A stretch of DNA of 34,101 bases from Chryseobacterium gleum. GTDB taxonomy: Bacteria > Bacteroidota > Bacteroidia > NS11-12g > UBA955. A program made the translations under genes and the position numbers. Location: NCBI GenBank assembly GCA_945870885.1, contig CAMBTR010000007.1:1-34101 (forward strand), read 5' to 3'. Positions within the stretch are counted from its first letter, which is position 1. Every line of letters begins with the position of its first letter. The notes beneath the pieces were generated by a model. That model made no database searches. It was not told where the DNA came from and saw only the letters and a list, made by a program, of their open reading frames with translations. Below, piece after piece: positions 5,611-22,501 of the stretch.

Positions 5611-6330
5611 TCACGGCCGTTCTGTCACCAATTCTCCACCCACATAATAAACCACCTTTTTACTCGTGTCGATTTTTAGACAAACATCAAGGTCCGATTC
5701 TGCATGCATGCTCTGAAAACGCTGAACATGATTCGCATCAGACAGAAAACCAGCGACATCCGTTTTGGCTTGATTCCACAAGTGAATCGCAGCCCTAGTA
5801 GCATCGTCGGCCACCTTAGCGCCCATTTGCAACAAACTCGCCGCCATCGCACCGGCTAACAAAGTGTCTTCTAAATTAAAAAAGCCCTTCCACCCAGAAC
5901 AAAGCAAGTAAATATCACCCTCATCATTCATCAACGCATCACAAGTAACAGCGGAATTTAAAAAGGCCCCAACGCAAACAGTTTTGGCCATTTGACATAA
6001 ACTTAAGGCATGCGTGCCATTGGTAGTTGTCATAACAACCGACTTGCCACTCACTTTGTCTATCGTAAATTCTTGGGGCGAGTTACCAAAATCAAAACCC
6101 TCTACCTTAAAGCCATTTCTCTCGCCAGCCATCAAACAACCTTTTTCGCCCCACGCCCTTGCCTCGTCAAGACTTGCAACCGGAATCACCCGTTTGGCAC
6201 CATTCTCCAACATAACAACCATGCTCGTTGTAGCCCGAAGGACGTCAATTACAACTACCTGCTTTTGCACTACCGCATCGGCATACAGTGAAAATAATTC
6301 GGGTGTTAAAATCGTATAAACATTCTTCAT
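5611..6330 (-). CDS. comB: 2-phosphosulfolactate phosphatase family (ComB)
   Basis: ComB family enzymes hydrolyse 2-phosphosulfolactate to 3-sulfolactate with magnesium; the best known role is coenzyme M synthesis in methanogens. The 239-residue protein has the family hallmarks VVVIDVLRATTSM near residues 25-37, a GER-x-G segment followed by GFDFGNSPQEF, and TTTNGTHAL. I chose the ATG at 6330 because it overlaps the pth stop as ATGA and starts at the homology boundary; 14 upstream in-frame codons overlap pth. Bacteroidota do not make coenzyme M, so the physiological substrate is uncertain; sulfonate metabolism is an inference. Confidence 0.88.
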   Translation of the reverse strand: MKNVYTILTPELFSLYADAVVQKQVVVIDVLRATTSMVVMLENGAKRVIPVASLDEARAWGEKGCLMAGERNGFKVEGFDFGNSPQEFTIDKVSGKSVVMTTTNGTHALSLCQMAKTVCVGAFLNSAVTCDALMNDEGDIYLLCSGWKGFFNLEDTLLAGAMAASLLQMGAKVADDATRAAIHLWNQAKTDVAGFLSDANHVQRFQSMHAESDLDVCLKIDTSKKVVYYVGGELVTERP

Positions 6331-6887
6331 GTGTTTGTGTAATTCATCGCAAAACCCGCCCCCAAAGTGCAATACTGAAGTATGCCCTCCACGGCCCGCG
6401 GAACTGTTAAACCCAATGCTGCCATTTCTTCTTCTTTCCAGGTACCCAATACAAAGTTCACCTGTTCGCCTGTCCTAAAATCACTGCCGATTCCGAATCT
6501 CAGCCTAGAGTAATTCTGCGTACTTAGACTCGCCTGAACACTTTTTAATCCATTGTGCCCGCCATCACTGCCCTTGGTTTTGAGCCTTAATTTCGCCAGT
6601 GGCAACGCCAAATCATCCGTAACAACCAAAATATTTTCCAATTTGATCTTCTCCACCTGCATCCAGTAGGAAACCGCCTTGCCACTTAAATTCATATAGG
6701 TATTGGGCTTCAACAAAATGAGTTTTCTCCCCTTGTGCGATACCTCGCAAATCCAACCGTGCTTTACCACATTCCAACTTCCGTCAAACTTTTTGGCCAA
6801 TTGGTCTACCACGTCAAATCCAATGTTGTGACGCGTGTGTTCGTAATCCTCACCGATGTTTCCCAACCCTATGATTAAATATTTCAT
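6327..6887 (-). CDS. pth: Peptidyl-tRNA hydrolase
   Basis: Pth releases tRNA from peptidyl-tRNAs that drop off the ribosome. The 186-residue protein has the family's usual length. The active-site set is visible: Asn10 in GLGN, His20 in TRHNIGF, Asn66 in PNTYMNLSG, Asp91 in TDDLALP and Asn112 in GGHNGLKS. Its stop overlaps the comB start as ATGA, so the two are probably translationally coupled. The permease gene upstream ends 13 bases before the start, consistent with a permease-pth-comB transcript. Confidence 0.97.
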   Translation of the reverse strand: MKYLIIGLGNIGEDYEHTRHNIGFDVVDQLAKKFDGSWNVVKHGWICEVSHKGRKLILLKPNTYMNLSGKAVSYWMQVEKIKLENILVVTDDLALPLAKLRLKTKGSDGGHNGLKSVQASLSTQNYSRLRFGIGSDFRTGEQVNFVLGTWKEEEMAALGLTVPRAVEGILQYCTLGAGFAMNYTNT

Positions 6888-6900
6888 GGTTTCTCTCTGA

Positions 6901-8160
6901 TTATTTTTGGGCGATAACCCTCGTTTGATTGCTCAATACCGTAGCACGTCGTGCCGGAATAATTGCACTAACGGCTCCAAGTGCGACATTTAGAATCAAA
7001 ATTAACACTATATCCGCGGAACGCAACTCAACCGGGTACGACATATTAAAAGTTCCCTGCGTTTGAATAATCCCTGTTTTTTGCTGAATAACAACCAACA
7101 ACACGCCCAATCCAATTCCTATCAAACTGCCACAAATACTAACCCAAACCCCCTCCCAAAAAACAATCCATCCCACCATCGATTCTTGCATTCCCAAATT
7201 TCGAAATAAAATAAAATCATTCCGCTTGTCCAATACCATCAACGTGAGCGCCCCCACCAAATTGAAGGAAATTAGCATCAAAACAAAAGTCAGTATCGCA
7301 AACGAAATCCACTTTTCCGTATTAAACATTTTATACATTATCGGGTGCTGCTGCTGCTGATTGAAAACCGCAAGCTTGCTACCAACCAAATCTTGAAGTT
7401 GCTTCTGCAAATCCAACATTTTACCATTTCGCCCCCTTATTTCCGCCTTAACCCTAACCTCCAACGCTGTCGCCTCTTTCTCGGGGTCCAAATCGTAAAG
7501 ATAACCCGCGTCCTTGGCCGAAATAAAAACCGTATGGTCGTTCTCTTCTTCCGGCAACTGAACAATGGCCGACGGAATAAAGATTTGCGTTTTTAATGCA
7601 TCCGCACGGTGAATACCCGACGCTTTGTCCACCACCAACAATGATATCGGCTCGTCTATTTTTCCCACCCCTAGCCGATATACCAGGCCCTCCGACAAAA
7701 TCGCCATCGACGAAACACCGCCCAAAGAATCACGTTGTGCATCGTATAACATCGGTTTTCCCGCGGTAATCAAAGAATCCATTTGAATGCGCTTAAAAAA
7801 ATACTCATCAACCCCAACCACCCTACAAACCGTTTGCTGGTCGCCGTATTGCAAAATCGACTTCCCCTCTAATGTTCTCGAAACCACCTCAATACCAGGC
7901 GTTTTTCTCATTTTTAAGAGTGTTTGATCTGAAACCTCTATCGACTTTCCCTTGACCGCCGTGATTTTAAAATCAGGATCCGACTTTTGATACGATGAAA
8001 AAATGGACGACTCAAAGCCATTCAACGCGCTCATCAAAACCACCAAAGCCAAAGCGCCTACAGAGTAACCCAACAAGGAGATACCCGTAATTATGTTGAC
8101 AACGGTTGGGTTGGATTTGGAGAAAAAATATCTGCGCGATATGTGAAACGATAGTTTGAT
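6901..8160 (-). CDS. LolC/LolE-type ABC transporter permease
   Basis: This inner-membrane permease resembles LolC/LolE, which with LolD releases lipoproteins to the outer-membrane pathway. A first membrane helix (around SVGALALVVLMSALNGFE) is followed by a large periplasmic domain, then three C-terminal helices including LTLMVLDKRNDFILFRNLGM, a typical FtsX/MacB coupling segment. Homology continues upstream of the first TTG (8076): in-frame codons encode KLSFHISRRYFFSK and NIITGISLLGYSVG, as in the family. That extension has no ATG, GTG or TTG before an in-frame stop at 8179-8181. I place the start at the ATC at 8160, where family members have Met, giving 419 residues; this is uncertain. No ATPase gene is nearby. 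Confidence 0.8.
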   Translation of the reverse strand: MKLSFHISRRYFFSKSNPTVVNIITGISLLGYSVGALALVVLMSALNGFESSIFSSYQKSDPDFKITAVKGKSIEVSDQTLLKMRKTPGIEVVSRTLEGKSILQYGDQQTVCRVVGVDEYFFKRIQMDSLITAGKPMLYDAQRDSLGGVSSMAILSEGLVYRLGVGKIDEPISLLVVDKASGIHRADALKTQIFIPSAIVQLPEEENDHTVFISAKDAGYLYDLDPEKEATALEVRVKAEIRGRNGKMLDLQKQLQDLVGSKLAVFNQQQQHPIMYKMFNTEKWISFAILTFVLMLISFNLVGALTLMVLDKRNDFILFRNLGMQESMVGWIVFWEGVWVSICGSLIGIGLGVLLVVIQQKTGIIQTQGTFNMSYPVELRSADIVLILILNVALGAVSAIIPARRATVLSNQTRVIAQK

Positions 8161-8202
8161 GCTATTGCTTGATTTTATTCACAACAAATATCCATCAAAA
8201 AT

Positions 8203-8565
8203 CTATTCGTTGTCGGTTTTGGGTGTATTCAACGTTTTAAGCAACTCTTCCATTTTGGTTACATAATCCAATGTATCGTCCTCATAGAAGTGTACCTCCG
8301 GCATTTTCTTCACACTGTTACGCAATCGCTGCGCCAACGCATGTCGGATTTCTTTGTTACACGCATCCAACTGAGCCATGATCGCAGCCCTGTTTGGGTT
8401 GTTATAAAGACTCAAATATACTTTTACGTGGCCCAAATCGGGGCTTACCAACACATTACTAATCGTGACAAAGGCACCACCAAGCCAATCGTTCTTTTTG
8501 ATGTTGAACAATTCGCTCAAATCACGTTGAACCTGTTTTCCGAATTTCTCCTGTCTCAATCCCAT
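8203..8565 (-). CDS. rbfA: Ribosome-binding factor A
   Basis: RbfA binds the 30S subunit and helps 16S rRNA 5'-end maturation, especially in the cold. From the ATG at 8565 the protein has 120 residues and begins MGLRQEKFGKQVQRDLSELF. The KH-type region follows with VTISNVLVSPDLGHVKVYLS and LRNSVKKMPEVHFYEDDT. The open frame extends five codons upstream, but the ATG at 8565 matches the family start and follows TATCTTTG by only four bases. This suggests a leaderless message. Downstream, 42 bases separate it from the permease reading frame. Confidence 0.95.
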   Translation of the reverse strand: MGLRQEKFGKQVQRDLSELFNIKKNDWLGGAFVTISNVLVSPDLGHVKVYLSLYNNPNRAAIMAQLDACNKEIRHALAQRLRNSVKKMPEVHFYEDDTLDYVTKMEELLKTLNTPKTDNE

Positions 8566-8569
8566 ATCG

Positions 8570-8577
8570 CAAAGATA
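8570..8577 (-). promoter_or_regulatory. -7 promoter element of rbfA, 4 bases from ATG
   Basis: TATCTTTG on the minus strand is followed by CGAT and the rbfA ATG. With this spacing the RNA would begin at or next to the start codon. Confidence 0.6.
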
Positions 8578-19943: not shown

Positions 19944-21260
19944 TTACGCTGTTGTGTCACCGGAAAGTACTGTTATAAACGAAGTTGTATGTAAATAATT
20001 GTTGGCCGTCTCCATTATTTCCTCTGCGGTTATTGCCCAGACACTAGGTAGAATAGCATTGTAATAGTCTTTGGGTAAGCCGCGGTAGATTAAATGTTGC
20101 ACCTTGGAATTCATCGCAAAAGGCCCGTCAAAACCACTTCGAAACTGTCCGGCATAATATTGTTTGATTTTATAGAGCTCTTCATCGTTGATTTTATTTT
20201 GTTTCAATGATTGGAAAATCTCACCGATGCACTCTATTGATTCTTTAATGTGCGTGCTGTTTAGTTCACCAGATATGGTCCAGGTGTAATTTTGAAATGC
20301 GGGTCTGAAATATGATCCGACACCATAGGTTAACCCCCGGTCTTCTCGCAGAATTTGCATCAACCGTGACCCAAAATAACCACCGAGAACCAAATTTAAT
20401 AGGGTGAGTCGATGTCGTTCATTTTGGTTTTTCGGTACAATATGTGAAACCATTTGTAAACTAGTTTGACTCGTGTTTTCCATTGGGTGATGAACAATCA
20501 ATGGGGTTTGATTATTTCCTTGTTGACTTTCTATTGAGGGATTAGAATCATTAGGGTCAAAATTTATTTTAAAGCCACTGGAAGGAAATTCATTCAGCAT
20601 CTCTTCTAGGTGTTCCACGGTTTCTTGGTCGTAATCACCGGAAACCAGCAACATGATTCCGTTTAGAGCAAGATGTTGTTTCTTGAAATCCATCAAATGG
20701 CCACGCTCAATGGTTTGGTAATCAGACAAATTTCCATGTGCTCCAAGAACGTGTGATTTGCCGTAAAGGGATTCCAGTGAGATGCAGCTCGACCAGTATT
20801 TTGGCGTTTGTTGCTGACGTTCTAGCGATCCGCGCCTAATCATTACGGCGTTTTCAAACTCTGTGATAGGATAACTAGCCGCGTGAACATGTTTAAAAAC
20901 CCAATTTGCGACATCGTTGACGTGTTTTTTAGCACATCGAAATACCAAAGAAGAGCCCAACAAGTTTGTTTCGGTGCTGTGGGTGGCGCCAAGATGGTCT
21001 AAATATCTAATCACATCATATTCCGAATGAAATTCATCACCTGAAAGTAAGAGGTCTACCGCCAAAGAGGCTTGATATGGTGTTGTCTGTTGTTTTGTTC
21101 CCGCGGGCCAAAATAACTCTACCCGAACAACGCCAATCGAACTTGGCTCACCGAGAAAAACGGGGTGCCCTGTTCTTAGGTTTTCAATGGTTAGGTTTTT
21201 CAACGCTAACGATTCAATCGTTTTCGCTTGGGGTCTAGTAGCTCTGAATGAAGTCGTCAT
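19944..21260 (-). CDS. M16 peptidase-like protein, non-catalytic partner
   Basis: This 438-residue protein has the M16 (insulinase/mitochondrial processing peptidase) two-lobe fold: an N-terminal VRVELFWPAGTKQQ strand region and a C-terminal GGYFGSRLMQILREDRGLTYGVGS segment typical of the partner subunit. The zinc motif HxxEH is absent; the equivalent region reads SLAVDLLLSGDE. It is therefore likely the inactive, substrate-holding partner of the catalytic protein encoded just upstream, overlapping it as ATGA. Such pairs are common in bacteria, and the physiological substrates are unknown. No signal peptide is evident, so it may act in the cytoplasm. Confidence 0.9.
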   Translation of the reverse strand: MTTSFRATRPQAKTIESLALKNLTIENLRTGHPVFLGEPSSIGVVRVELFWPAGTKQQTTPYQASLAVDLLLSGDEFHSEYDVIRYLDHLGATHSTETNLLGSSLVFRCAKKHVNDVANWVFKHVHAASYPITEFENAVMIRRGSLERQQQTPKYWSSCISLESLYGKSHVLGAHGNLSDYQTIERGHLMDFKKQHLALNGIMLLVSGDYDQETVEHLEEMLNEFPSSGFKINFDPNDSNPSIESQQGNNQTPLIVHHPMENTSQTSLQMVSHIVPKNQNERHRLTLLNLVLGGYFGSRLMQILREDRGLTYGVGSYFRPAFQNYTWTISGELNSTHIKESIECIGEIFQSLKQNKINDEELYKIKQYYAGQFRSGFDGPFAMNSKVQHLIYRGLPKDYYNAILPSVWAITAEEIMETANNYLHTTSFITVLSGDTTA

Positions 21261-22501
21261 TTTTTTGGGTGGTAATAAATCACAGACACGTTATTTTCTT
21301 TGAATGTTGCCGTTGCGGTTGACATTACATCAGCCAACGAAAGACCTTCAATTATTCCTGGTTCATGATTAATTTGTTCGATATCCCCCGCATTTGCATA
21401 GTAACAGAGTTTCTGTGCCAATTGCATTGGTTGCGTTGCTTCAAAAAGCAAGTTGGTGACATGTCGGTTTTTCACACCCTCATAGGCAGATGAAATATCC
21501 TCACCCCCAGCGGTTACCTGTTGAACGATATCATAAAGTGCCTTTTCTCCGTCGGCATGAGAAATATCGGGGTTTAAGATTCCATACAAAACAAATAAAC
21601 CCTCGCCGAGACCACGCAAATAGAAGCACTCAGATGAATTAAAGAGTTGTTGTTTTTTAACGAGTTCCATTTGGAGGGGCGATACATCTGAACCACCCAG
21701 AACCTCAGAGAACATTTCTAGGTGCAGAGATTTGGGATCATTAAAAACAGGCCCCCGCCAAACCAGAAAAACAGCCGGATTAGGACTTAAATCCTCGGTT
21801 TCTAAAAAACGTCTTTCAGTTTGATCAGGCTCTTGGATATATATGTTTTTGTTTGGTAGGGCACTTTTTACAATTCCCCCAAACCATTTATCAGCCAAGG
21901 ATTTTGTTTCGTCAAGGGTGATATCACCAACCACGGAAATGATGGCGTTTTGCGGACAATAAAACATATCATAAAACGACCTAACATCTTCGATTTTGGC
22001 CTCTTCCACGTGGTGGAAATTCAAGCCTATTGTGGGCCACTGATAGGGGCTGGTTTTATATACCAACGATCTAACATGGTGCCACAATAACCCAAAAGGA
22101 GCATTAAAGCAACGCTGTTTAAACTCCTCTACAACAACACCCTGCTGAATAGAAAGAGATTTTTCATTGATATTTAGCGCTAGCATTCGATCACTTTCTA
22201 GCCAAAATGCAGTTTCCACATTTTCATTTGGCATTACCAAATAATAATTGGTAATTTCATTGTTTGTGAAAGCATTGTTTTGCCCCGCCGCCTCTTCAAC
22301 TTCTTTGTCAAAAACGGGTACATTTTCTGAACCCGAAAACATTAGATGTTCAAATAGGTGAGCAAATCCAGTTCTCTCAGCACTTTCATCCCTTGCACCA
22401 ACGTTGTAAAGGGTGTTTAAAACGATAGTGGTTCGAGTCTTGTCTTCTAAATGAATTACTCGGAGGCCGTTATTTAAAACAAATTGATTGTATGAATACA
22501 C
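21257..22501 (-). CDS. M16 zinc peptidase, catalytic subunit
   Basis: This 414-residue M16 metallopeptidase carries the inverted zinc motif H48-LF-E51-H52 in FAHLFEHLMFSG. The third ligand is probably Glu125 or Glu126 in GVVVEEFKQR, at the expected distance. The start is GTG at 22501, four bases after a TAAATTTG promoter element; no ATG lies near the homology start. It forms a heterodimer candidate with the non-catalytic M16 protein that follows (ATGA overlap). It leads a likely six-gene operon: M16, M16, T9SS cargo, ybeY, mnmG, Ig-like protein. There is no signal peptide. Its substrate is unknown. Confidence 0.93.
   Translation of the reverse strand: MYSYNQFVLNNGLRVIHLEDKTRTTIVLNTLYNVGARDESAERTGFAHLFEHLMFSGSENVPVFDKEVEEAAGQNNAFTNNEITNYYLVMPNENVETAFWLESDRMLALNINEKSLSIQQGVVVEEFKQRCFNAPFGLLWHHVRSLVYKTSPYQWPTIGLNFHHVEEAKIEDVRSFYDMFYCPQNAIISVVGDITLDETKSLADKWFGGIVKSALPNKNIYIQEPDQTERRFLETEDLSPNPAVFLVWRGPVFNDPKSLHLEMFSEVLGGSDVSPLQMELVKKQQLFNSSECFYLRGLGEGLFVLYGILNPDISHADGEKALYDIVQQVTAGGEDISSAYEGVKNRHVTNLLFEATQPMQLAQKLCYYANAGDIEQINHEPGIIEGLSLADVMSTATATFKENNVSVIYYHPKK

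Follow-up and report, generated by a model that had tools for sequence, protein, structure and literature searches.

A conserved ATC codon as the likely translation start of a LolC/E/F-like permease gene in one genus of Bacteroidota

The window, by which we mean the whole stretch of 34,101 nucleotides analysed here (contig CAMBTR010000007.1, assembly GCA_945870885.1), carries on its minus strand a gene for an ABC permease, preceded by aroQ and rbfA and followed by pth. The features on which the argument turns are as follows.

6901–8160, minus strand: coding sequence of the LolC/E/F-like ABC permease, 419 codons plus stop, with FtsX and MacB_PCD domains (Pfam)
8158–8160, minus strand: ATC, proposed start codon of the permease (among 13 readable genus N-termini, 12 with ATC and one with ATA; 64/64 N-termini from outside the genus canonical there or one codon off)
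8077–8157, minus strand: codons +1 to +27, ahead of the first canonical start; pS and pN point to purifying selection
8074–8076, minus strand: TTG at codon +28, the first in-frame canonical codon and an unlikely main start (CTT in L004 and L014)
8179–8181, minus strand: in-frame TGA closing the permease frame upstream, as read from the sequence
8161–8202, minus strand: 42-nt spacer from the rbfA stop to the ATC, with A at -3 and -6 of the ATC; length not conserved
8203–8565, minus strand: rbfA, ribosome-binding factor A, upstream neighbour, with canonical ATG (Pfam RBFA, 9.3e-26)
6327–6887, minus strand: pth, peptidyl-tRNA hydrolase, downstream neighbour, with canonical ATG (Pfam Pept_tRNA_hydro, 2.4e-60)

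The identity of the permease can be given with confidence only in a wide sense. Its best-matching solved structures are E. coli LolE (PDB 7arh, 3.2e-18, chain 7arh_E residues 5–406) and LolF (PDB 9w35, 6.2e-15), and this similarity over nearly the full length, together with the FtsX and MacB_PCD domains, likens it to LolF, LolC and LolE (PDB 9w35, 7arh; PMC11784454) and would make it a member of the LolC/E/F group in the wide sense. It differs from them in that its score against the NCBIfam lolCE profile (TIGR02212) is 154.5 bits, below the curated cut-off of 362.45, although profile positions 2–401 of 411 align, and in its surroundings. Whereas lolF is described in an operon with lolD (PMC11784454), the permease adjoins rbfA and pth, and in the window's assembly the strongest LolD-like matches lie elsewhere, on contigs C46 and C41, none of them above a cut-off strict enough that only 1 of 14 control genomes passes it. 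Because of these neighbours and the location of the LolD-like matches on other contigs, the protein is named here, from sequence similarity, LolC/E/F-like only.

The mechanical open reading frame of the permease begins at 8076. Read on the minus strand from 8181 to 8076, the sequence is TGA ATA AAA TCA AGC AAT AGC ATC AAA CTA TCG TTT CAC ATA TCG ... TTG, and it contains no ATG, GTG or TTG from the TGA at 8179–8181 up to the TTG at 8074–8076, which confirms the observation of the preliminary description from which this work started. Its further claim that the stretch upstream of this TTG encodes the N-terminus of the family holds as well, since residue 3, counted from the ATC, falls opposite residue 5 of the LolE chain of E. 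coli in the alignment. To account for the missing start, that description had left three options side by side: initiation at a rare ATC (8158–8160, where Met is expected) or at the ATA at 8178, a mutation or sequencing error at 8158, and a shorter protein from 8076.

Comparison with close relatives, which had been suggested as a check, separates these options. The genus, as sampled here, comprises 15 genomes, 13 of which match the permease at 1e-20; 12 of these have a readable N-terminus, and with one genome (G007) giving two, 13 N-termini could be compared. Left out were G001, in which only the C-terminal part is present, and G008 and G009, which gave no match at 1e-20, and duplicate records of the same contigs (L038–L046, L048) were counted once. 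The start column holds ATC in 12 of the 13 and ATA in the remaining one (G002, UBA955), on which ground we take the observation to be beyond chance. The permeases of the genus are 97 to 53% identical to the window protein, so that the same non-canonical codon is kept across species, and this strongly supports the ATC among the starts that had been considered. The ATA at 8178, by comparison, is AGA in the 89%-identical L003 and is not kept in farther relatives, which refutes it as the start. The suggestion of a sequencing error, or of a single ATG-to-ATC mutation in the window genome, has in its favour that ATC differs from ATG by one base, and we found nothing further to support it. Eleven other N-termini of the genus, with protein identities as low as 53%, show the ATC as well, and they come from MAG records of several accession groups (for example Baikal-G2, UBA2234, pond_E1, Loc081215 and the RE/RH isolates), and these relatives refute the suggestion, leaving it a practically negligible chance.

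One of these genomes, G007, carries two divergent copies of the gene block (L003 on contig C19 and L035 on contig C2), whose permeases are 89% and 57% identical to that of the window; the first contig has Baikal-G2 in its title (L039). Perhaps G007 consists of two species binned together.

Outside the genus the same column is occupied by ordinary start codons. Among 44 distinct N-termini from the same family, two from elsewhere in the order included (49 rows before five with identical N-terminal DNA were collapsed), the start is ATG in 21, TTG in 12 and GTG in 11, lying in the column of the ATC, or one codon beside it in 4 of the 44. A second family of the order adds 20 N-termini, ten with ATG and ten with GTG; these rows were not collapsed (L188 and L189 look identical over the stretch shown), and for six of them, which had no script anchor, the start was read by eye from the translation, with M at the start. 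Thus, none of these 64 N-termini from other genera has ATC, ATT or ATA as the only start of the permease. In the tree, which carries a long-branch warning for its outer rows, the genus forms one supported clade (98/96) whose neighbour is a genus that uses ATG and TTG; the ATA species is nested among the ATC species. From these positions, ATC was probably gained once, and the ATA was probably derived from it.

Because the near-cognate AUN starts are also Ile codons, conservation alone does not separate a start from a merely conserved internal Ile, and we need to pay attention to what surrounds the codon. For this purpose seven divergent lineages of the genus, the window included, were compared. 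In five of the seven the frame holds no ATG, GTG or TTG from the preceding stop up to the ATC or ATA, so that a canonical start at or above the homology start is absent from them. The other two have in-frame TTG codons upstream, at -20 and -26 in L009 and at -6, -9 and -32 in L010, and in these translation could begin at such a TTG. The upstream in-frame stop, too, lies at different distances within the genus, from -4 to -37 codons. Downstream of the ATC, codons +1 to +27 of the window compared with the six other lineages give pS of 0.74–0.98 and pN of 0.065–0.098, a mark of purifying selection that argues for translation of the stretch, albeit inferentially. Upstream, codons -6 to -1, where sites are few, give pN of 0.50–0.81 when divergent lineages are compared (and 0.21 for the more closely related L011 and L035), which suggests that protein constraint begins at about the ATC.

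The same evidence bears on the shorter protein, in which translation would begin at the TTG at 8076 (codon +28) and the homology upstream would be untranslated. This TTG is indeed the first canonical in-frame codon, and each lineage of the genus has some TTG or GTG at codons +19 to +29. However, codons +1 to +27 show the substitution pattern of coding sequence, and the lineages have no downstream start column in common, codon +28 being TTG in six of the seven and CTT in the seventh (L014), as it also is in L004. A start at +28 would, moreover, cut off the N-terminal stretch matching E. coli LolE from its residue 5 on. As the main product the short form is therefore very unlikely, although a minor short form from 8076 may be made beside the main one.

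Codon choice at the start column is also informative, within limits. Among the Ile codons in the body of the gene ATC is the least used (ATT 116, ATA 56 and ATC 37 of 209), yet the start column holds ATC in six of the seven lineages; the chance of at least six of seven being ATC is 1.8e-4 if the lineages are treated as independent. Caution is needed here, as a single codon is retained by six or more of the seven lineages in 34 of 131 invariant-residue columns, and by all seven in two other columns among the 12 with invariant Ile. The codon may reflect one event, the genus being one clade, but synonymous sites are saturated (pS near 0.9), which speaks against its having persisted by simple inertia. 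We note separately that codons +6, +7 and +10 of the permease (within 8128–8142) are ATA, TCG and TAT in 7/7 genus lineages; the ATA at +6 is met again in many of the family's rows, even though the gene encodes Ile more often with ATT.

Two other ways of entering the permease frame from upstream deserve consideration. Ribosomes might start at a GTG, TTG or ATG in another frame and reach the permease by a programmed frameshift; out-of-frame upstream starts do occur in several lineages (for example GTG at -22 in L003, TTG at -19 in L007 and ATG at -7 in L035), and in the window a GTG (8182–8180) runs into CAA TAG C, which we take to resemble the +1 site of prfB. However, the TAG of this site is absent in L003, the upstream start positions vary from -7 to -47, and the lineages have neither a slippery site nor a frame in common, so that the common slippery site, or upstream start in one shifted frame, expected of a programmed +1 frameshift was not found. 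In the window and in L010, furthermore, both shifted frames stop before the ATC and no start codon follows that stop. A frameshift thus appears extremely unlikely. Alternatively, stop readthrough might fuse RbfA to the permease, and in the window rbfA does end in the permease frame (phase 0). Two in-frame stops intervene there, however, and in the genus loci that extend as far as rbfA (12 of 13) the spacer to the ATC or ATA ranges from 42 to 122 nt in all three phases, which leaves this explanation hardly any credit. The same spread of spacer lengths rules out translational coupling to rbfA at a fixed distance.

If the ATC is a start codon, is the permease alone in using one? Among 26 syntenic window genes compared with up to nine genus contigs, the permease is the only one without a canonical start at its homology start. 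Four rows or genes of this survey could not be fully judged (G002 in genes 66 and 87, N-masked; G014 in gene 61, at a contig end; and gene 86, whose starts do not align), and six genes besides the permease that have no shared start column near the N-terminus were read by eye. The neighbours are conventional, the ATG of rbfA being common to 10 of 10 genus members and pth starting with ATG in eight and GTG in one of nine. A broader comparison paired 62 orthologs of G013 and G012, adding the G007 copy wherever there was one, and spans a small part of the 1.8-Mb genome; in 52 pairs the members agree on a canonical start close to where the homology begins, and in ten, the permease included, they do not. 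By individual member, 24 of 156 are without a canonical start up to three columns past the homology start. The next 12 codons supply one in 22 of the 24, and the two members that still lack one are both the permease. The infC gene begins with ATG AAA in every one of the 11 genus members where it can be read (a twelfth match is cut by a contig end), so that an AUN start of the kind that goes with infC-type self-regulation of IF3 is absent from all eleven. In a separate observation, a gene at 21257–22501 has a GTG start common to all six genus members compared; we take it to be peptidase-like from its HLFEHLM motif.

These surveys also speak to the idea that the genus possesses a special initiator tRNA or a start rule relaxed over the whole genome, for which we found no supporting evidence. 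The window's assembly, 91% complete, yields 29 tRNA hits with ordinary anticodons, among them three CAU and one Ile GAU, and ATG, GTG or TTG is used by the rest of the syntenic genes examined, which make up a small part of the genome. We give such an idea a very slim chance.

The sequence just upstream of the ATC may offer some, not uniform, help to initiation. Bacteroidota are said to lack Shine-Dalgarno sequences, and in Flavobacterium johnsoniae A at -3 and -6 helps initiation, while changing the -3 base from A to G was harmful in one reporter (PMC6847099). Across the seven lineages the -3 base is A in four, G in two and T in one, and the -6 base is A in five, so that the context reads as partly Kozak-like. 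RNA structure was considered as an explanation of the start and dropped, since three regions folded there were not clearly better than shuffles (z -1.03, -0.22 and -0.10). A match to TAnnTTTG lies 30–32 nt before the ATC or ATA in three of the seven lineages (L009, L010, L014), possibly an own promoter of the permease. Elsewhere in the window, a TATCTTTGC-like sequence, presumably the -7 promoter box of Bacteroidetes, stands a few bases before the ATG of several genes (for example at 8569–8577), where it is visible as YLC before M; its position suggests very short leaders or leaderless mRNAs.

Taken together, we consider it very likely that the permease starts at AUC, or AUA in one species, by means of the ordinary initiator fMet-tRNA, and that its synthesis is low. 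In such a scenario fMet-tRNA, with its anticodon CAU, would pair with the first two bases of AUC or AUA and leave the third mismatched, and the product would begin Met-Lys-Leu-Ser-Phe. CTG, ATA, ATT and ATC are reported to function as starts in E. coli at reduced rates, with a reporter ranking of ATG > ATA > ATT (PMC13068326), and IF3 excludes weak third-base pairs (PMC10158994); IF3 would then be the factor that discriminates against the AUC or AUA and limits synthesis, which would be weak, steady and at a low level. Selection for a scarce permease might lie behind this, since relatives outside the genus also use GTG and TTG unusually often for this gene. Permease starts are GTG or TTG in 23 of 44 cases outside the genus, compared with 4 of 28 distinct rbfA genes (Fisher p 0.0012, shared ancestry ignored; the control drew on 34 longer loci of the same set, 33 of them with rbfA, giving the 28), an excess suggesting that weak starts suit the permease.

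Known conserved non-canonical starts provide a frame for this reading. The closest parallel is perhaps sigR of Streptomyces, where a non-canonical start is likewise kept in one genus (GTC in 32 of 34, GTT in 2); in the account of PMC5472188 nothing indicates that other actinobacterial genera use it, the start keeps the protein scarce, and IF3 represses sigR. It differs in being GTC and not ATC, in belonging to a sigma factor and not a permease, in being experimentally proven, and in having an extensive conserved Shine-Dalgarno sequence, where none is obvious at the permease. The self-regulated infC (ATT in E. coli, ATC in Streptomyces, as stated in PMC5472188) belongs to the same AUN near-cognate class; in the genus, by contrast, infC has ATG and the odd codon sits on a Lol-like permease, which gives no feedback loop on IF3 itself. 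In Listeria monocytogenes, rnhC with ATC, and infC with ATT, are described (PMC13068326), the ATC of rnhC being likewise a fixed, conserved start and said to be experimentally confirmed, although within one species, in a different gene and in a Firmicute. On the comparative evidence, we regard the permease as a further case among these conserved starts (sigR, infC and Listeria rnhC).

The gene order invites a bolder speculation. IF3, besides rejecting weak third-base pairs, helps the release of RbfA from 30S subunits (stated in PMC10486304), and the permease gene follows rbfA. One might therefore imagine the AUC or AUA start as a regulatory valve: a disturbance of initiation fidelity or of 30S maturation would raise permease output and, with it, lipoprotein export. 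We consider this unlikely, and any role of IF3 or rbfA in regulating the permease is conjecture at present. If true, however, it would couple envelope building to the state of the ribosome in Bacteroidota that lack Shine-Dalgarno sequences.

Irrespective of such details, the finding has several consequences. Few AUC starts are cited in the sources drawn on here (Streptomyces infC and Listeria rnhC), and among the literature matches listed none, judged by title or abstract, is an AUC-start case of this kind in Bacteroidota; the permease would bring in a membrane transport gene from that phylum. Gene finders restricted to ATG, GTG and TTG would begin the window protein 28 residues too late. The ATC start appears to have been kept across a genus whose permease copies differ at up to nearly half of their residues, and the genus would thus offer a natural test of how ribosomes accept AUN starts without Shine-Dalgarno pairing.
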